The translations under genes and the position numbers were made by a program. The notes under the pieces are model-generated. The model made no database searches and was not told where the DNA came from. It worked only from the letters and a program-made list of their open reading frames with translations. From Alphaproteobacteria bacterium (GTDB taxonomy: Bacteria; Pseudomonadota; Alphaproteobacteria; CACIAM-22H2), in assembly GCA_017308135.1 (NCBI GenBank), contig JAFKFM010000009.1:434001-498000 (forward strand): a stretch of DNA of 64,000 nt, written 5' to 3'. Position 1 is the stretch's first letter. The number at the start of each line of letters is the position of its first letter. This document shows positions 52,165 through 60,957 of this stretch, one piece after another.

Positions 52165-53487
52165 TTACTGGTCGCCCGCGACTTTTTCGCGCACGAAGCG
52201 CACATGCATGCGCAATTGATACAACGCGTCGTCGTAGGAATGCGGCAACTTCAACGATTCGACCGCTTTTTCGATGGACGACAACTCGGCACGGCAGGAT
52301 TCCCTGGCCGTCGGATCGGATTCGTTCAGCAGTCGTACCTCGATCGTCCGCAAGCGCTTGTACCAGCGATTGATCTTGCCGCGGATCTGCCAGCGATAGA
52401 TCGGCGGCGCCAAGCGCATCAGCGGGATCATCAGCGTGATCAGCGGGATCAGCATGACCAGCGTGCGCTCGATCAGCACGGCGAGCCAGAACGGCAGATA
52501 GGCGACGAGCACGCCGGGTCCGCGCCGCACCAGGCGCTCGCTATCCTCGTGTTCGGGGAAATCGAGATAGTCGAGCGAGGGGAACATGCCCGGCGGCGCG
52601 AACAACTGCCGCGGGCTATGCACTTCCTTCGCCGCCTTGAACAGCAATTGCACAAGGGCGGGATGCAGATCTTCGCGCACCGCGAGCTGCGCCACCGGGG
52701 CGAGCAGCACGAGGTCTTCGTTCGGTACGTCGCGCGCGAGATCGAGCGAGCCGCCCGGCAGCACGACCGAAGCGAGGAACGGGAAATTGTGCTTATAGGC
52801 TTCGTGGCGCGGGAAGCCGATCAGGCGCGCGCGCCCGCTTGCCAGCATATCGGCGAGGCCTTCGGGCGGGCGCGCCGACACGGCGAAGGCCGCGTCGATC
52901 CGCCGCTCGCGCAGCGCCACCAGCGCATCGCCCGTGCCCATCGCGACGGCTTGCACGTCGCTCGCCATATCGAAGCCGTTGGCGCGCAGCAATTGTCGCG
53001 CGAGGATTTGCGTGCCCGAGCCTTCCGGGCCGATCGCGATGCGCCGGCCGCGCATATCGGCGAGCTTGGTCACGCGCAAATCGGCGCGCACCATTAGCCA
53101 AACGGGCTCGTGAAAGACGGTCGCGAGCACGGCCACGCCCGGCGAGCCTTCCTCAGAGCCCACGCCGCCTTGCACGAAGCCGGCATCAGCGCGGTTCTCC
53201 CCGCCGCTCAACATATGCAGATTTTCAAGCGCGCCGGCGGTGCGCAGGATCTCGAGCTTCACCCCGTCGCGCGCCAAAATCTGCGCGTAGCGTTCGGCGA
53301 AGGCGGCATAGGACCCGCCTTCCGCCCCGGCGGCGAAGCGCAACGTGTCGGGCGGCGGCGGCGCCACGAACCGGAACGCGACATAGAACCCCGCCGCGAT
53401 CAGCAGCGCGATCGGTCCGTAGACCTTCGCCACCGCCGCCGCCAGCGTGCCCCAATCGCGCAGCCGCGCGCGCCACTTCCAATTCAT
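52165..53487 (-). CDS. Membrane-anchored TAXI-family TRAP solute-binding protein
   Basis: 440 residues. An N-terminal membrane span (YGPIALLIAAGFYVAFRFV) leads into a TAXI-type binding domain (DTLRFAAGAEGGSYAAFAER, ADAGFVQGGVG, RGRRIAIGPEGSGTQILARQ). A second hydrophobic segment (LIERTLVMLIPLITLMIPLM) precedes a cytoplasmic-looking helical tail rich in charged residues. The domain resembles TRAP binding proteins, but no TRAP permease genes are adjacent. It is the last gene of the protease-cyclase cluster, 63 bases after the cyclase. Confidence 0.85.
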   Translation of the reverse strand: MNWKWRARLRDWGTLAAAVAKVYGPIALLIAAGFYVAFRFVAPPPPDTLRFAAGAEGGSYAAFAERYAQILARDGVKLEILRTAGALENLHMLSGGENRADAGFVQGGVGSEEGSPGVAVLATVFHEPVWLMVRADLRVTKLADMRGRRIAIGPEGSGTQILARQLLRANGFDMASDVQAVAMGTGDALVALRERRIDAAFAVSARPPEGLADMLASGRARLIGFPRHEAYKHNFPFLASVVLPGGSLDLARDVPNEDLVLLAPVAQLAVREDLHPALVQLLFKAAKEVHSPRQLFAPPGMFPSLDYLDFPEHEDSERLVRRGPGVLVAYLPFWLAVLIERTLVMLIPLITLMIPLMRLAPPIYRWQIRGKINRWYKRLRTIEVRLLNESDPTARESCRAELSSIEKAVESLKLPHSYDDALYQLRMHVRFVREKVAGDQ

Positions 53488-53550
53488 TTGCGCCCTCGAT
53501 CCTCGCCGAACGAGGGGCCAGTCTAAGCGGCATGTTGGCCGCTTGGCGAC

Positions 53551-55635
53551 TCACTTCCCGTCGAGGGTCGTGACCGCATCCCAATCGGCGCCCGGCGGAT
53601 CGGCTAACGTTTCGTCGATGCGCGTCAGGAACGATGCGGCCGCCTTGTCGCGCGTCGCGAGCGGCGACAAAACCGACTTGGCGCCGGTGAAATCGCGCGC
53701 GCGATAAAGCGCCAAAGCGCGCGCGTAGGGTGCGGCGAATTCGCTTTGCGTTGGCGCCAAGGGCTCGTGGATCGCGACGGGAGCGGCGCGCCCCTTCACG
53801 CGAACGCGATCGAGTTCGCGCCAGACGATACCGGCGTCGCCGCACGCGGCGCGCGTGGCATCCGACACCATGATCGCGGAGCCGAAATACTTGTTCGCCC
53901 CTTCCAAGCGCGAGGCAAGATTCACCGTGTCGCCCATCACGGTGTAGTTGAAGCGCCGTGTCGAACCGATATTGCCGACCAGCGCCGTGCCGGTATTGAC
54001 GCCGATGCGCGCCCCCAGGCGCTTGCCCTTGAAGGGCTGGGCCGGATCGGCGTTCAACGCGGCGAGCCTCGCCTGGCATTGCAGGGCGGCCGTCACGGCA
54101 TTACGCGCATGCTGCGGATCGTCGAGCGGCGCGCCGAACACCGCGACGATGGCGTCGCCGATATATTTGTCGACGAAGCCGCCATTGGCTTCGACGATCT
54201 CCGTCATCGCCGACAAATAGACATTCATCGTCGCGACGAGTTCGGCGGGCGTCAGGCCTTCCGACAGCGCGGTGAAGCCCGCGACGTCGGAAAAGAGCAC
54301 GCTCACTTCGCGCTCCTCGCCGCCCAATTGCGGCGGCGTGTCGCCCGCGACCAGCTTGTCGATCACGGCCGGCGCGAGATAAAGCGCGAAGCTGCGGCGC
54401 AGAAAGCGCTTATCCTTATCGGCGACGGCGAAGCGATAGCCCGCGAGCAGCGCCGCCGCCGCGAACGCGGCCGCCAAGCCATCGAGCCAGGGCAGCACGA
54501 AGCCGCCTTGCAGTGCGACCGTCGCCAGTGCCGTCCAGGTCGCCGCGATACCCAACAAGGCGAGACCCGCCAGCGATGCCGGCAATGCCAGCGCCGCGAA
54601 AGCCGCGAGCATTACGCCGGGCACGACGGCCAGCGCGCGCTTTGGCGGCGACAAATCGGCAAGCCCGCGCCCGCGCAAAAAATTCTCGATCGCGGCGGCG
54701 TGGATCAACACGCCGGGGATCGCTTCGCGCGTGAAATCCGCCTTCACCAAATCGGCGCGTGGCGCCAGCGCACAGCGTGGGCCCGCACCTGCACCCTCGG
54801 GCCCCGCGATAAAGCGTTTGGACGTGATCTTGCGATCCTCGACATCCAACACCGCGCCGATCAACACGGCCTTGTCCTTGAAATGCCGTGCGAAGAATTC
54901 CGCGTCGCCCTTCGCCGCGCAGGCGCGCAAATCGGCGAGCGAGAAGATCGGTACGTCGCGCCCGCCGCCGGTGAAGTCGATCGTCATCGCGCCGTCGCGC
55001 ACGCCCGCGACATCCGGCGTTTTCCCGGCGAGGCGCGACGCGATTTCGAACGCGAAGCTCGTCTCGCGACGCGTGCCGCCGCTCGCTTCTTCCGCCTCCA
55101 AGTGCAAGGGCACGCGGCGGATCGAATCGTCGGCATCGGCGATCAGATTGACCGCGCGGATATTCGCGGCATTGCCGACCGCGAAGCTCTGGCCCGGAAA
55201 GGGGCGGATCGGCTGGGTTTGATGCTGCACCTTGCCGAGCAGCACGCGGCCCTCGCGCGAGCCCGCGCGCAAGGCGCGCAGGAATTCGCGCTCGAAGCCG
55301 GGCACGAGACGTTCGACGGAGGTCGGAAAGATCACGTCGAAGCCGACGATCTTCGCGTTGGCGTCGAGCACGGCGTTCAACACCGGCGCCAATTCCGGCG
55401 TCCACATCGCCTGCGGCAGATCGGCGAAAGGCGGTGTGCGATGCGTTTCCTCGTCGATCGCGATCACCGCGACTCGCGAATCCTCGGGCCCGCGCGCGGC
55501 CCCGAAGACGGCGTGGCGCAGCGCGAATGCGGCATCGAGCGACAGGCCCGCGACGCGTTCGCCCCACGGTGTCAGCGGGAAAAACGAAACGGCCGCGACC
55601 AGAAGCGCGGCGGCGGCCAGATCGCGGCGTTTCAT
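53551..55635 (-). CDS. CHASE2-domain adenylate cyclase
   Basis: 694 residues. Domains: membrane span near the N-terminus, CHASE2 periplasmic sensor (about 35-310, with RVAVIAIDEETHRTPPFADL and KIVGFDVIFPTS), two to three spans around 335-410, then a class III cyclase (about 440-630). The catalytic set is complete: metal Asp in VLFSDVAGFT and in DKYIGDAIVAVFG, the adenine-selecting Lys and Asp (VDKYIGD, TVMGD), and Asn/Arg in VNLASRLEG. It should make cAMP in response to a periplasmic cue. It starts three bases after the preceding exported protein gene. Confidence 0.9.
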   Translation of the reverse strand: MKRRDLAAAALLVAAVSFFPLTPWGERVAGLSLDAAFALRHAVFGAARGPEDSRVAVIAIDEETHRTPPFADLPQAMWTPELAPVLNAVLDANAKIVGFDVIFPTSVERLVPGFEREFLRALRAGSREGRVLLGKVQHQTQPIRPFPGQSFAVGNAANIRAVNLIADADDSIRRVPLHLEAEEASGGTRRETSFAFEIASRLAGKTPDVAGVRDGAMTIDFTGGGRDVPIFSLADLRACAAKGDAEFFARHFKDKAVLIGAVLDVEDRKITSKRFIAGPEGAGAGPRCALAPRADLVKADFTREAIPGVLIHAAAIENFLRGRGLADLSPPKRALAVVPGVMLAAFAALALPASLAGLALLGIAATWTALATVALQGGFVLPWLDGLAAAFAAAALLAGYRFAVADKDKRFLRRSFALYLAPAVIDKLVAGDTPPQLGGEEREVSVLFSDVAGFTALSEGLTPAELVATMNVYLSAMTEIVEANGGFVDKYIGDAIVAVFGAPLDDPQHARNAVTAALQCQARLAALNADPAQPFKGKRLGARIGVNTGTALVGNIGSTRRFNYTVMGDTVNLASRLEGANKYFGSAIMVSDATRAACGDAGIVWRELDRVRVKGRAAPVAIHEPLAPTQSEFAAPYARALALYRARDFTGAKSVLSPLATRDKAAASFLTRIDETLADPPGADWDAVTTLDGK

Positions 55636-55638
55636 TTC

Positions 55639-56301
55639 CTAAAGACGCAAGAGGCGCGAGATGACCGGCGCTTGGCCGGGCTTGGCCTCGGGATCGACCT
55701 TGAACACGATTTCGCGCCCCGGCCCGGCCGAGGCGCGATAGACGCCGCCCGCAACCAGCGTTTGGCCCGCCTTGGCGAGATCGTGGAACGCGCCGCGCTG
55801 CAATTGCTGGGCGGCGACTTGGACGGTGAGTTTCTCGCCCGGCGCATCGATGCGCTCGATCGTGACGGTGCCCCCGCCCTTCACGTCGAGGACGGGCGAC
55901 AAACCGTAGAGCGTGGCTTGCGGTGCCGCGGCGCCTTGCGCGGGACGCGGCGGGGCGCGGAAGACCATCACGCCGGCTTGGCCCGATTGCGCCTGGGTCA
56001 AGCGCATCTTGCCGCCGTCGCATTCGACCTTTTCGCGGCGCACGGTTCCGCCCGCGACGGTCGATTGCTCGGCGCCCACCGTCACGGTGCCGCCCTTGAT
56101 CGTCTCGCGCCAGCAGGAGCGCAGATAGCCGAGCACCAGCTCGTCGCCCGGCGCCAATTTGATGACGCGTCCGGCATCGACGTAATCCATGAAATCGACG
56201 TCGAGATTCTTGCCCTTCGCATCCTCGACCAGCGCCGCCTGCTGTGCGATGGCGGGCGCGGCGCAAACGAGAACGGCAAGGCAAACGGCACGTACGATCA
56301 T
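55639..56301 (-). CDS. Exported protein of unknown family in the caspase-CHAT cluster
   Basis: 220 residues with a clear signal peptide (MIVRAVCLAVLVCAAPAIAQ). The mature part is rich in beta-type segments and Gly, with two cysteines (RSCWRETIKGG and EKVECDGGKMRLT) that could form a disulfide. No protease, lectin or pore motif is recognisable. Its start overlaps the end of the caspase gene by four bases, and it ends three bases before the cyclase, so it is surely in the same operon. It may be a regulator or substrate of the neighbouring proteases, but this is speculation. Confidence 0.7.
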   Translation of the reverse strand: MIVRAVCLAVLVCAAPAIAQQAALVEDAKGKNLDVDFMDYVDAGRVIKLAPGDELVLGYLRSCWRETIKGGTVTVGAEQSTVAGGTVRREKVECDGGKMRLTQAQSGQAGVMVFRAPPRPAQGAAAPQATLYGLSPVLDVKGGGTVTIERIDAPGEKLTVQVAAQQLQRGAFHDLAKAGQTLVAGGVYRASAGPGREIVFKVDPEAKPGQAPVISRLLRL

Positions 56302-57587
56302 TTGTATACGACCTCGGTGGTCCGGCCGCGAATACTATTGAATGTTATATGAGCGGTAAACCGCCCGTTCGATTCCTCCAGATGGCCGGTGACGCTGTGC
56401 GTCTCCCGGCCGAAATAGCTTTCGCAGTCGAGCGCCAGCGGCGGGACCCGCAAATCGGCATCGACCTTGCCGACGCCGAGACAGCGGAACACCCCCGTGA
56501 TCGAATTGCTTTGATGGTTCGACAGCGTCAATCGAACCACGTTGTTCTCGATCGTGATATGCGACGTACCCGCGGTCAGAATCACGACACCGGCATCGAC
56601 ATTCGCCATCAACGTGGTCGTGATCGAGCGCGCGATCCGCGGCACGGCCGCGACCTGTCCGCGCGGCGCGCTGTCGTTCGCGGCGCTCAACGCCGCCATA
56701 CGCTCGCGCGCGATCGACGCGAAAGTGCCGGCCGGATAGGCGTCGAGATAGGCGCGCATCTCGGCCGGGTTGTTCGATGTTCTGATCGAGTCCCAGAACA
56801 GCGTTTCGCGATCCACCGGGGCCGCCGGCGCCGCACCGGCCTGCGGCGGCTGGAAGAAGAAATCGCCGGTCAACGACGATGCTTCCCATGGCACCTGGGC
56901 GCCGCCGGACGCGCGGGCGACGTCGATACGCACCTGCTTGAAGACTTCCTCGACCTTCAAGCCGGGTTCGTTCAACGCGCGCAGCAGCGCTTGGGTATAA
57001 AGCCCGTTGCTGCCCTCGCCATCCGCCGCCACTTTGCCCGGTGCCGTCGCATAGGCGATCAGCGTGCCTTCAGGCGCGTTGATTTGGGCAAGTCCCCCGC
57101 CGGTCGACCGGAAGCGCCGCTCGAACGGATTGTTGCGGCAGGCGTCCAGAATCACCATCGACACGCGCGCCTTGGCCGCCGCCATCTGATCGAGCACGGC
57201 TTCGACGTCCAGCGTTTCCAAGCGCACGCGCTGCTCGGACGTGATACGCGCATCGACGGGAACCAGATAGTTGCGGCCCTGCACCTGCATCCCGTGACCG
57301 GCATAGAAGAACAGCGCCGTATCGCCCTCGGCCAGTTTCTCGCCGAAATCGGCGACCGCGTCGCTGAACTGGGCCTTCGTCACGTTCTCCTTCAGCAGAA
57401 CGTCAAAGCCGCGCGCGCGCAACGATTTCGCCATTTCCCGCGCGTCGTTGGCCGGGTTGCGCAGCGGCGCGTCGGCATAGTTCGAATTGCCGATCACCAG
57501 CGCCACTTTTTTCGACGCGAATGCCGGGGCCGCCGCCAGCAAGGCGCCCAAAGCCGCCGCCAAAACGATGCCCGCCAAACGGTTCAT
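56298..57587 (-). CDS. Exported caspase-family (C14) cysteine protease
   Basis: 429 residues. A signal peptide (MNRLAGIVLAAALGALLAAA, cleavage near AFA-SK) is followed by the caspase p20-like domain: ALVIGNSNYADAPLRNPANDAR, His98 in FFYAGHGMQVQGRNYLVPVD and Cys150 in VILDACRNNPFERRF, the catalytic dyad. YATAPGKVAADGEGSNGLYT and TGDFFF are further family marks. A C-terminal beta-rich domain (about 300-429) is unassigned. The protein is exported, so it acts in the periplasm. It is coupled to the next gene by a four-base overlap. Confidence 0.9.
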   Translation of the reverse strand: MNRLAGIVLAAALGALLAAAPAFASKKVALVIGNSNYADAPLRNPANDAREMAKSLRARGFDVLLKENVTKAQFSDAVADFGEKLAEGDTALFFYAGHGMQVQGRNYLVPVDARITSEQRVRLETLDVEAVLDQMAAAKARVSMVILDACRNNPFERRFRSTGGGLAQINAPEGTLIAYATAPGKVAADGEGSNGLYTQALLRALNEPGLKVEEVFKQVRIDVARASGGAQVPWEASSLTGDFFFQPPQAGAAPAAPVDRETLFWDSIRTSNNPAEMRAYLDAYPAGTFASIARERMAALSAANDSAPRGQVAAVPRIARSITTTLMANVDAGVVILTAGTSHITIENNVVRLTLSNHQSNSITGVFRCLGVGKVDADLRVPPLALDCESYFGRETHSVTGHLEESNGRFTAHITFNSIRGRTTEVVYK

Positions 57588-57669
57588 GGCTCGCGTCCAA
57601 AAGAGAAATTTACGCTGTCGAGGGTAGCATAGTCCGGCGGCCGCACAAGTCAGTGACCGCCGTCACAGG

Positions 57670-60600
57670 TTACGGGACCGCCGCTTGCTGGCGCGCCGTG
57701 CCGCCGCCATCGCCCACCAGGGTGAAGGGCGCCCAAAAAATGGGATGGGCATAGGCGAAAACGGTCGCATTGGACGCCGGATCGACCAGCCCCCTCCCGT
57801 CGATCAATCCGGCCATCGCCTGACGCAGGGCTTCGGCGCGGGCGAGGTTCGCGTCGCGCGCCTGGCGGGCGAACAAATCGGTCGTCAGGGCCCGCGCCGA
57901 TGTCGTTTCGACCGGCCAGTTCGACACCAGCAAGGCGCGCGTGCCGGCATAGAAAAAGGCGCGGCCCAGGCCCGACACGGCTTCCGCCCCCGCCCCGTCG
58001 CCCGTCGCGGTGTTGCACGCGGAGAGGACGACCCAATCGGCGTTGAGACGCAAGGCGAGCACTTCGTCCAGCGTCAGCAGCCCGTCGCCGTCGGCATCGG
58101 CGACATTGGGCGCGGACAGCGCCAAGGCGGGCTGCGTCAGGCCGTTCAAATCGCCGGGGATCAAGCCATGCGTCGCGAACATCACGACGCGACGATCGGA
58201 TAGATCCATCGCCTTGACCGTCTTTTCGTTAGCGGCGGCGCCCAGGATCACGTCGGACGCGTCGGCGTTGAGCGCCATCGCGATGCCGCGCACTTCGTCG
58301 GCCGTGTCGGGCAGACGCGGCAGCAAGCCAAGCTCGGCGCTGTCCACCCCTTGCGTGGCGGGCGCGTTGCGGCGCACGAGCTTCAGCCCGCGCGTTTGAA
58401 GCCCGCGCGTCGTGAGTTGTGCGGTTTGCGTCACCTGTTCGGCCTTGGCTTCCGCCGCCTGGTCGGCGTTGAACCACGGATCGCCGAACCCGACGAACGC
58501 CTTGCGGTTCGCGGGCGGCACCGGCAGCCCGCGCAACGTGGCCAGCGACGCGACCGACGGCAATTGCGTGATCGCCGCCTTGCGGATCAGGAACGGCACT
58601 TGTCTATAATTGGCGAACAGCGCGTCGTTGGCGCGCTCGGGCGCCAGCGTCGTCGCTTGCGTGACCAGCACGCCGAACGGCAATTGCCCCAGCGCGTCGT
58701 GCGGCACAACCAGCAGCGAATTGGCGTTCGCGAAGCCCGCTTCGACGGGCTTGAGAAGATCGTTATAGAGCGACGCGGCCAGTCCCACGTCGAAGGCCGG
58801 AATATCGCCCAAGGTCGCGGCGTTGGGGTCCAGCGCCTTGCGCAGATTCGTAACCGCTTCGGCGATTTGCGCGCGGCCCTTGCCCACGGCGGCGAAAGCC
58901 GGAGCGCCCGAAACCGGCACGGCCCAAACGAAGCTTTGCTGGCGCCCGACATAGGTCGCGATCAGGGCTTCGCCCGGCCGCAACGCCTTGCGCGTATCTT
59001 CGATCGTCGCGGGGCGCGGATCGATCAATTGCGCGTAGCTGGGGAAGCGGCGCTCGATCTCCTGGCGGATCGCCGCGCGCGCGGAACGCAGCGTATCGAT
59101 CTGCGTGCGCAAAGCGCGCAGCGCATTCTCGTCGCGCTCGGCGGCGGCCAGCACGTTGGTCAGCAAGCCTTGCAGCGCGCCGATCTGCTTTTGCGTGTCC
59201 TGTTCGCGGCGCGCCAGATCGGCCAAAGCCGGATCGGCGGCGGCCGCACGCGCCGAGGATTGCGCCAAGGCGCGCTGCACGCCCGCCCCGCGCACCGCGT
59301 CGGCCAAGCGGAACGATTCCTCCGCGGCGCCCGCACGGCCCGACCGCGCGAGCGCGCCCATCGCCGCTTCGAACACCATCTTCATCTGCGTTTCGCGCGC
59401 GACGGAGCCGGTCTCCTCGTCGTCGGATTGGCGGGAGGATTGCAGCAGGATCGGCAGCGCCGCGTCGAACTCGGCCAATGCCGCATTCGCGTCGCCCTGC
59501 GCCAAAATCGCCGCGCCCAGCATGCCGCGCGCCATGCCCGTGTCCCAATGACGCGGGCCCAGCACGCTCGCATGGCGTTCGACCACTGCGGTCAGCACGC
59601 GGCGCGCTTCGGCCGAATCGCCGTTGCGCAACGCGACCATCGCCCAGTTCGGATTGGCATCGAAGGTCCCGCGCATCAGATCGGAGTTGTTCGCTGCACG
59701 CTGGCGGATTTCGGCGTAGCTGCGCGCCGCCCCTTGCCAATCCTCGCGCTGGCTTTGCGCGCGCGCAACGACGCGCAAGGCGCGCACCGGCCCCGGCGAA
59801 GCCGGATCGAATTTCATCGTGTCGAAACTTTCGAGCGCCACGCGGCCCAAACGCTCGGCCTCGGCGGCGCGACCTTGTTCCAGCAGAATGTCGGCGAAGG
59901 CCGCGAGCGTGGACAGCGTTTCGGGCGAATAGCGGCCGAAACGCTCCAGCCGCGACAGCAGCGCGCGGCGGATTTCGACCTCGGCCTCCATCAACCTGCC
60001 TTGGCGCATCAACGCGCGCGCCAACTCGCCGCGCATATTCTGTTGCAGATTGGCGAAGGTGCCGGCGGGCGGCCCGCCTTGGGCGGCGATGCGCGGCTCG
60101 TCCGCGATCAATCTTTCATTACCGGTCAAGGCGAAGCGCAATTGCGTCTCCGCGTCGGCGAAGCGGCCCTCCTCCATCGCCAGCGACGCGCGCGCGCGGG
60201 CAAGCAGCACTTGGCTGTTCTCCACCACGAAGATCGGCGAGCGCGGATTGGCGCGGATCTCTGCGAGAGTCGATTCCATCCGCGTCAACGCCGTGCGCGC
60301 CTCCGCCAGATCGCCCAGCATCGGCGCCCAGTTGACGACGTTCATCAGCGCGCTCATCCGGTTGCCCGGATTGGGCGCGCCCGCGATGCGCTGGCGCGCG
60401 GTCTCCAGCGCGGCACGCGGGTTACCGCCGAAAATCTCGGCGAAGGTCATTTGCTGCTGGATTTGGGTCAGGCGCCCGCTCGGCATCCCGTTTTGCGTGG
60501 CCAAGCCAACCGCCTCGCGCAGATCGGCCAGGCGCTGGGCGTTGCGGCCCAACTCGCCCGCCGCCATGCCGCGAACCATCAGGAATTCCGCCAGCGCCAA

Positions 60601-60852
60601 ACCGCTGGCCCCGGATGGCGGTTGCGCGTCGGCCTGCGCCACCAAGGTCGCGACCTTCGCGGGATCGGGCCGCTGCTGATCGAGAACCGCCGCGATATCC
60701 GAAATCGTGCGCGGCGGCGGCTGGAAACCTTGGCCCTGGAAATTCGCCGTGATCTGGCGCGCCTGATCGAGGCTGACCACCGGGCGCTGACCATCTTGCT
60801 GGCAACCCAGCAAAGCGGCGCAAGTGACGGCGATCGCGGCGACGCGCTTCAT
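57670..60852 (-). CDS. CHAT-domain lipoprotein with TPR repeats
   Basis: 1060 residues from the ATG at 60852 (GGGAGATTCCG upstream). A lipobox (VTCAALLGC, Cys18) predicts anchoring in the envelope. Residues about 40-560 are helical repeats of TPR type. A coiled stretch near 570-650 leads to the C-terminal CHAT protease domain, with His895 in MFATHGLIPGD and Cys946 in VVLSACNTATGDG, the separase/caspase-like dyad. Between them, residues 919-930 read DADGDGLLTLDE, matching an EF-hand calcium loop. It is the first gene of the cluster, diverging from a uronate dehydrogenase gene. Confidence 0.9.
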   Translation of the reverse strand: MKRVAAIAVTCAALLGCQQDGQRPVVSLDQARQITANFQGQGFQPPPRTISDIAAVLDQQRPDPAKVATLVAQADAQPPSGASGLALAEFLMVRGMAAGELGRNAQRLADLREAVGLATQNGMPSGRLTQIQQQMTFAEIFGGNPRAALETARQRIAGAPNPGNRMSALMNVVNWAPMLGDLAEARTALTRMESTLAEIRANPRSPIFVVENSQVLLARARASLAMEEGRFADAETQLRFALTGNERLIADEPRIAAQGGPPAGTFANLQQNMRGELARALMRQGRLMEAEVEIRRALLSRLERFGRYSPETLSTLAAFADILLEQGRAAEAERLGRVALESFDTMKFDPASPGPVRALRVVARAQSQREDWQGAARSYAEIRQRAANNSDLMRGTFDANPNWAMVALRNGDSAEARRVLTAVVERHASVLGPRHWDTGMARGMLGAAILAQGDANAALAEFDAALPILLQSSRQSDDEETGSVARETQMKMVFEAAMGALARSGRAGAAEESFRLADAVRGAGVQRALAQSSARAAAADPALADLARREQDTQKQIGALQGLLTNVLAAAERDENALRALRTQIDTLRSARAAIRQEIERRFPSYAQLIDPRPATIEDTRKALRPGEALIATYVGRQQSFVWAVPVSGAPAFAAVGKGRAQIAEAVTNLRKALDPNAATLGDIPAFDVGLAASLYNDLLKPVEAGFANANSLLVVPHDALGQLPFGVLVTQATTLAPERANDALFANYRQVPFLIRKAAITQLPSVASLATLRGLPVPPANRKAFVGFGDPWFNADQAAEAKAEQVTQTAQLTTRGLQTRGLKLVRRNAPATQGVDSAELGLLPRLPDTADEVRGIAMALNADASDVILGAAANEKTVKAMDLSDRRVVMFATHGLIPGDLNGLTQPALALSAPNVADADGDGLLTLDEVLALRLNADWVVLSACNTATGDGAGAEAVSGLGRAFFYAGTRALLVSNWPVETTSARALTTDLFARQARDANLARAEALRQAMAGLIDGRGLVDPASNATVFAYAHPIFWAPFTLVGDGGGTARQQAAVP

Positions 60853-60957
60853 CGGAATCTCCCATGTTTGCTTGGCCAAGAATCTACACGTCAGATATGG
60901 CCCATTCAATGCGCGTCAGTGTATGTTCGCCGTCACATAGGGGAGGAAGTGCCGAAT

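Follow-up and report, generated by a model that had tools for sequence, protein, structure and literature searches.

Receptor adenylate cyclases with a CHASE2 sensor domain control, for instance, rhizobial infection, and, to our knowledge, few of the signals that it reads have been identified. Among Alphaproteobacteria, exported caspases are widespread; we know of no pathway that has been assigned to them. Regarding CHASE2 receptors, the gene for CyaD1 in Sinorhizobium meliloti adjoins clr and the genes for the extracytoplasmic proteins SMc02177, which has a FecR domain, and SMc02178; smc02177, smc02178, and smb20495 are dispensable for signal perception (PMC5498481). The scattered distribution of exported caspase homologues has already been reported, and a caspase-CHASE2 fusion from Trichodesmium is on record (PMC3501461). 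Taken individually, none of the three protein types is new: CHASE2 cyclases, exported caspases, and TPR-CHAT proteases have all been described. In the present study, we analyzed a locus at which genes of all three kinds lie side by side, in a window (the whole stretch of DNA analyzed) of 64,000 nucleotides (C9:434001-498000) from a 5.2-Mb genome, the nearest named relative of which is a Tagaea sp. record (L052). The locus resembles the CyaD1/CyaD2/CyaK-Clr system (smc02175-smc02178) in that a CHASE2 receptor cyclase is encoded next to extracytoplasmic partner proteins and, as a candidate likeness, in a CRP-family regulator with palindromic boxes upstream of these partners (PMC5498481, PMC13001267).

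The five minus-strand open reading frames that a first-pass annotation had described were all present with the domains ascribed to them (Table 1), and its further details were borne out, namely both catalytic dyads, the lipobox and signal-like leaders, the overlap at ATGA, and the completeness of the CHASE2 cyclase. The CHAT gene product combines TPR with a CHAT domain (PF12770, E 2e-49), an exact His895/Cys946 dyad in ATHG/SACNT, and a lipobox, LLGC, at Cys17. The caspase matched Peptidase_C14 (PF00656, E 1e-47), carries the exact dyad His98/Cys150 in GHG/DACR, has MALT1 as its closest solved relative, and shares an ATGA at its end with the start of P3 (56298-56301). The dyads of both proteases are conserved in the alignment of homologues. 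In the cyclase, which has hydrophobic segments at residues 6-24, 334-352, and 379-397, CHASE2 (E 1e-23) lies between transmembrane segments and is followed by Guanylate_cyc (E 7e-25), both over the cut-off. D450 and D494 (metal), K490 (ATP), and N572 and R576 (transition state) are all present, and the catalytic residues are the same in nearly all P3-linked homologues; the product of the window cyclase would be cAMP. The fifth product has NMT1_3/TRAP_TAXI domains. In the whole genome, there are four proteins with CHAT, a single match to the caspase, and two matches to CHASE2.

Table 1. Coordinates of the genes and sites discussed in the text; positions are those of the window unless a locus is named.
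Feature	Coordinates	Strand	Remarks
TPR-CHAT protease lipoprotein	57670..60852	-	1060 aa; ATG at 60852; core member
Exported paracaspase-like caspase	56298..57587	-	429 aa; optional, variable slot
P3, exported beta protein of two domains without a Pfam family	55639..56301	-	core member
CHASE2 receptor with class III adenylate cyclase domain	53551..55635	-	694 aa; core member
Membrane-anchored TAXI-type binding protein	52165..53487	-	neighbour, judged outside the unit
CRP-type palindrome TGTGACGGCGGTCACT	57652..57667	.	9/10 half-site bases; ~80 bp upstream of caspase start
Weaker similar site TGTGACGGCGAACATA	60922..60937	.	8/10; upstream of CHAT; may be chance
Sister operon	L028:3873-13118 (G000:C6, about 832-841 kb)		CHAT L001, exported protein, and CHASE2 cyclase

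The location of these products in the envelope, as proposed from the window alone, gains strength from the homologues. The lipobox cysteine is kept in all CHAT homologues with an N terminus aligned there, with an ordinary signal peptide taking the place of the lipobox in L072; caspases in P3 clusters start with signal-like segments, one of them, next to P3 in L078, bears a peptidoglycan-binding domain, and P3 homologues begin with a hydrophobic leader and share a pair of invariant cysteines (Cys63/Cys94). These export calls are based on hydrophobicity, the lipobox pattern, and conservation rather than on a trained predictor.

P3 was sought in 61 relatives and then by alignment in 84,980 species genomes, which yielded 37 further loci, mostly from metagenome assemblies. 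A CHASE2 cyclase lies directly downstream of P3 in 34 of the 37, while a CHAT homologue is immediately upstream in 16 of the 30 loci with a readable upstream gene. When 72,556 plasmids were searched, P3 and the CHASE2 half picked out the same four Azospirillum records; the order on Azospirillum plasmids is P3, cyclase, ShlB. A TAXI gene in the vicinity of the cluster is confined to the window, L052, L053, and L054; it is an immediate neighbour in no more than the window and one close relative, and is separated from the cluster by opposite-strand genes in L052 and L054; it was rejected as a fifth member because its adjacency is not conserved beyond the closest loci. Regarding the five-gene module originally proposed, four of the five genes are adjacent to one another in other genomes and the core of CHAT, P3, and cyclase stands, whereas the caspase is patchy and TAXI extraneous. 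The unit consists of P3 and the cyclase, usually with CHAT in the window's clade, and the caspase is an optional member.

Several individual loci deserve mention. Apparent long reading frames suggestive of a CHAT-P3 fusion in L038 and L040 were dismissed as frame coincidences after their coordinates had been checked by hand. The CHAT gene of L057:6785-9920 (an Asaia bogorensis MAG record) is divided by a frame change into two pieces that meet at residue 967, which may reflect a broken gene or an assembly error. A contig titled Candidatus Rokuibacteriota (L064), with a 71% identical P3 and the end of a CHAT gene, is probably mis-binned. Divergent genes of one cluster precede P3-cyclase in L070, L080, L081, L084, and L086 (about 8.1-9.9 kb; Bradyrhizobium, Rhodoplanes, and Rubrivivax), and that in L081 encodes polyphosphate kinase 2.

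A second, divergent arrangement was found in the sister operon of the same genome, the order of which is an exported protein of 168+ aa, a cNMP-binding protein, a CHAT lipoprotein, an exported protein of 234 aa (P3b), and a CHASE2 cyclase, with ShlB and TPS-domain (two-partner-secretion) genes divergent from it. The place of the cNMP protein is taken in G026 by a channel of the MscS type that carries a cNMP domain, with a TPS protein adjacent, and a Sphingobium plasmid has the order CHAT, CHASE2 cyclase, P3b homologue (30% identity, E 3e-16), ShlB. Kinship between P3 and P3b was not demonstrable by hhalign (probabilities of 22% and 2.4%). The sister cyclase (L028:3873-5873 and orthologues) has NQF for DKY, a genus-wide replacement of the ATP-specifying Lys by Gln, and its product is therefore uncertain and may not be cAMP; the sister cyclase of G026 retains DKY. 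The recurrence of CHAT, a small exported protein, and a CHASE2 cyclase in two divergent forms argues for a functional unit.

This recurrence bears on another explanation of the cluster, namely that independent exported proteases merely lie beside a P3-cyclase pair. CHAT is absent from the other 14 of the 30 readable loci and the caspase from most, two CHAT paralogues in the window genome have no adjacent cyclase, and caspases of the same family also occur away from P3 in G002, G013, and G015, all of which would fit such an explanation. However, of the 64 CHAT domains in the 61 related genomes, 28 have a CHASE2 domain within 6 kb, where well under one pair would be expected by chance according to our own estimate from gene densities. 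This linkage, which exceeds chance, extends over both module types and across families, and the sister operon is kept from the 168+ aa gene through the cyclase, with ShlB opposite, in 11/11 genomes of the genus. We regard chance neighbourhood as the least probable of the explanations considered here.

The caspase, which is present in the cluster in 8/37 P3 loci, has a variable position. In L052, L054, L058, and L063, it is flanked by CHAT and P3 or immediately precedes P3; it lies behind the cyclase in L070 and L087, and behind P3 in the place of the cyclase in L073 and L078. It is cleanly absent from L053, the P3 and cyclase of which are approximately 93% identical to those in the window, and L056, L057, and L062 lack it; the caspase in the slot requires four changes of state on the P3-cyclase tree. 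The same slot between CHAT and P3 holds a GDSL lipase in L066:666-1277 and L071:1761-2360, and an exported hydrolase-like protein that matched no Pfam family in L072:9143-9823.

Other alphaproteobacterial plasmids also have CHAT and caspase genes next to each other, with export signals on both products. Pseudosulfitobacter plasmids, among which 47 records gave a CHAT hit, carry a row of caspase, serine protease, two unknowns, and CHAT (L131:2041-10287), with signal-like leaders on the caspase and CHAT, which makes this a paired-protease cluster of a different kind. On plasmids of Azospirillum brasilense (L133:358-11838) and Sulfitobacter (L137:2266-8149), a leader-bearing caspase is divergent near CHAT genes, with no cyclase in the stretch.

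Caspase-CHAT adjacency of this type, the patchiness of the caspase, and the match of the window cyclase domain to the Pycsar cyclase (PycC) profiles of PADLOC are what would be expected of an anti-phage or programmed-death module, in which a caspase and CHAT form a killing cascade and the cyclase serves as a Pycsar-like alarm. However, Pycsar cyclase profiles can match class III cyclases generally, the proteases bear export signals, the P3-cyclase core is stable in the clade, and the genes flanking the window cluster are chemotaxis and metabolic genes. No cyclic-nucleotide-dependent (Pycsar) effector was found in the cluster or the flanking genes examined, neither Pfam nor PADLOC identified a gasdermin in the cluster, in which P3 is an exported protein modelled as all-beta and lacking a strong fold match, no gasdermin gene was seen among the flanking genes examined, and cas genes were absent from the cluster and from the scanned flanking genes (40 to 64 kb). 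A defensive role consequently appears highly improbable to us. A proteolytic cascade between CHAT and the caspase, of the type that the first-pass annotation cited for other bacteria, is not supported, while its view that the arrangement departs from the CRISPR and gasdermin types holds as far as the genes examined show.

Considering the composition of the core, i.e. a membrane-anchored and presumably periplasm-facing TPR-CHAT cysteine protease, a small periplasmic P3, and a CHASE2 receptor adenylate cyclase, we favor, with some reserve, a receptor-cyclase unit of the envelope that includes periplasmic proteases, has cAMP as its output, and is subject to feedback through CRP. P3, which accompanies CHASE2 receptors of this type almost without exception, would probably serve the receptor as a ligand or co-sensor in the periplasm, and we infer that the two are in contact. 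The CHAT lipoprotein, together with the exported caspase at loci that have one, would be hydrolases that share the compartment of P3, and they would most likely act on P3 or on the CHASE2-P3 complex, such that an event in the envelope may lead to protease action and then to a change in cAMP. That P3 is cleaved, and in which direction this would act, is a guess on our part.

The candidate cleavage site is Arg115, which is invariant in 36/36 P3 sequences and, in the AlphaFold model, sits in the low-confidence, presumably flexible linker that joins two beta domains (pLDDT 85; N-domain alone 91.5). The N-domain has no match by sequence and a lone stand-out shape match to 5ix9, a cell-surface anchoring domain (Z 6.7 over 63/76 residues; next 3.5), while the C-domain is weakly Fn3-like (best Z 6.0), both matches being below our trust level of Z 8. 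An identity of P3 with FecR proteins found no backing in Pfam, 36 P3 homologues having given zero FecR hits with E values up to 5, in which P3 differs from SMc02177; a remote similarity may nevertheless exist. Two observations count against proteolytic gating: Arg115 is also invariant at loci with no adjacent protease, and its conservation may therefore be unrelated to cleavage, and the absence of CHAT from many readable loci indicates that the protease is not needed everywhere. The dispensability of the S. meliloti partners for perception also counts against the favored receptor unit.

A palindrome of the form TGTGA-N6-TCACA recurs upstream of the caspase or P3 in several lineages, with 10/10 half-site bases in L052, L054, and L088 and 9/10 in L053, L061, L062, and L060; the site is also kept in L053, in which P3 directly follows CHAT. 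With the discovery clade excluded, at least 9/10 bases were found in 4/46 regions upstream of CHAT, caspase, or P3 versus 1/193 control upstream regions (p 0.005), the palindrome having been noticed first and tested afterwards and independent lineages being few. TGTGA was the best of 30 permuted half-sites, and a spacing of 6 stood out. Since approximately half a site is expected by chance in the window alone, the window site is at chance level, and only one perfect palindrome was present in the whole genome, so that the case for these sites rests on the comparison between loci. A global CRP regulon defined by perfect sites was rejected on the same count. No site was found in Azospirillum loci or in front of the sister module.

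In E. coli CRP, TGTGA is read by the RETVxR helix. A CRP protein in which a cNMP domain and a Crp helix-turn-helix are combined with the GELAAIDGGPRSAS cassette and a RETVxR helix is encoded in the genome, and its orthologues in G005, G007, and G011 have a CHASE2 gene within approximately 4 kb. Site and regulator are a candidate pair. If this pairing is correct, cAMP would act through the CRP-family regulator on the likely sites before the caspase/P3-cyclase part and close a feedback loop. A cyclic nucleotide as the likely output, which had been raised as a possibility from the window alone, is favored by the cNMP-binding protein of the sister operon together with these sites and the regulator.

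The same sites are the starting point for the main rival to the receptor unit, in which cAMP lies upstream: the CHASE2 cyclase would sense the envelope, and P3, CHAT, and the caspase would be envelope effectors induced by cAMP and CRP for surface or secretion maturation, including that of two-partner-secreted adhesins, similar to the targets of Clr in Sinorhizobium. The S. meliloti partners are Clr-induced as well as unneeded for perception (PMC5498481), two-partner-secretion genes occur beside both module types, and the caspase's slot may be taken by a GDSL lipase or another exported protein, all in keeping with such effectors. On the other hand, P3 and the cyclase are nearly inseparable and resemble receptor partners more than an effector and its sensor, and the cyclase itself would sit behind these CRP sites. 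Moreover, a tblastn search revealed no two-partner-secretion genes near the window cluster or near P3 loci outside Azospirillum. We consider this ordering possible, but clearly less probable than the receptor unit. Gene content, conservation, dyads, export signals, the recurrence of the trio, the sites, and the regulator can all be read from the sequences themselves.

Returning to described systems, the S. meliloti CyaD1-Clr system is described with neither CHAT nor a caspase, and the Clr box is HGTYHC, versus a TGTGA half-site here. Csx29 of the type III-E CRISPR Craspase has the same succession of TPR and CHAT, a His/Cys dyad, and a protease encoded next to its candidate substrate, whereas the protease here is an exported lipoprotein with a receptor cyclase as its partner, and no Cas7-11 was seen in the flanking genes (PMC10028731). 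The window caspase shares an N-terminal leader and an intact dyad with exported alphaproteobacterial orthocaspases and paracaspases, for which the accessible part of that report mentions no operon linkage with P3, CHAT, and a CHASE2 cyclase (PMC3501461). In the searched open literature, no paper combined "CHASE2" with "CHAT domain", and the operon linkage of a CHASE2 cyclase, an exported caspase, and a TPR-CHAT protease with P3 was not found.

The Lap system (LapA/CdrA retention module, LapG, LapD, and c-di-GMP) also joins a periplasmic cysteine protease to a second messenger, and shares two-partner-secretion genes with the sister module (PMC13090378); the resemblance of the P3 N-domain model to the anchoring domain 5ix9, at Z 6.7 below the trust level of 8, may be a further likeness. 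By contrast, the present cluster has CHAT and C14 as its proteases and a class III cyclase as its receptor, and no LapD-like receptor was seen. A cAMP counterpart of the Lap switch, in which periplasm-facing proteases of the caspase fold (the CHAT lipoprotein, with or without the exported caspase) would cut P3 at the invariant linker Arg, the cut product would be read by the CHASE2 cyclase with CRP feedback, and a sister version would govern two-partner secretion, appears unlikely in this full form. Overall, the cluster looks like an undescribed envelope-to-cAMP signaling unit and not a cell-death or CRISPR cascade. The near-obligate periplasmic partner P3 and the linked protease are concrete candidates for CHASE2 sensing, and exported caspases gain a candidate pathway at this locus that may be tested through cAMP.
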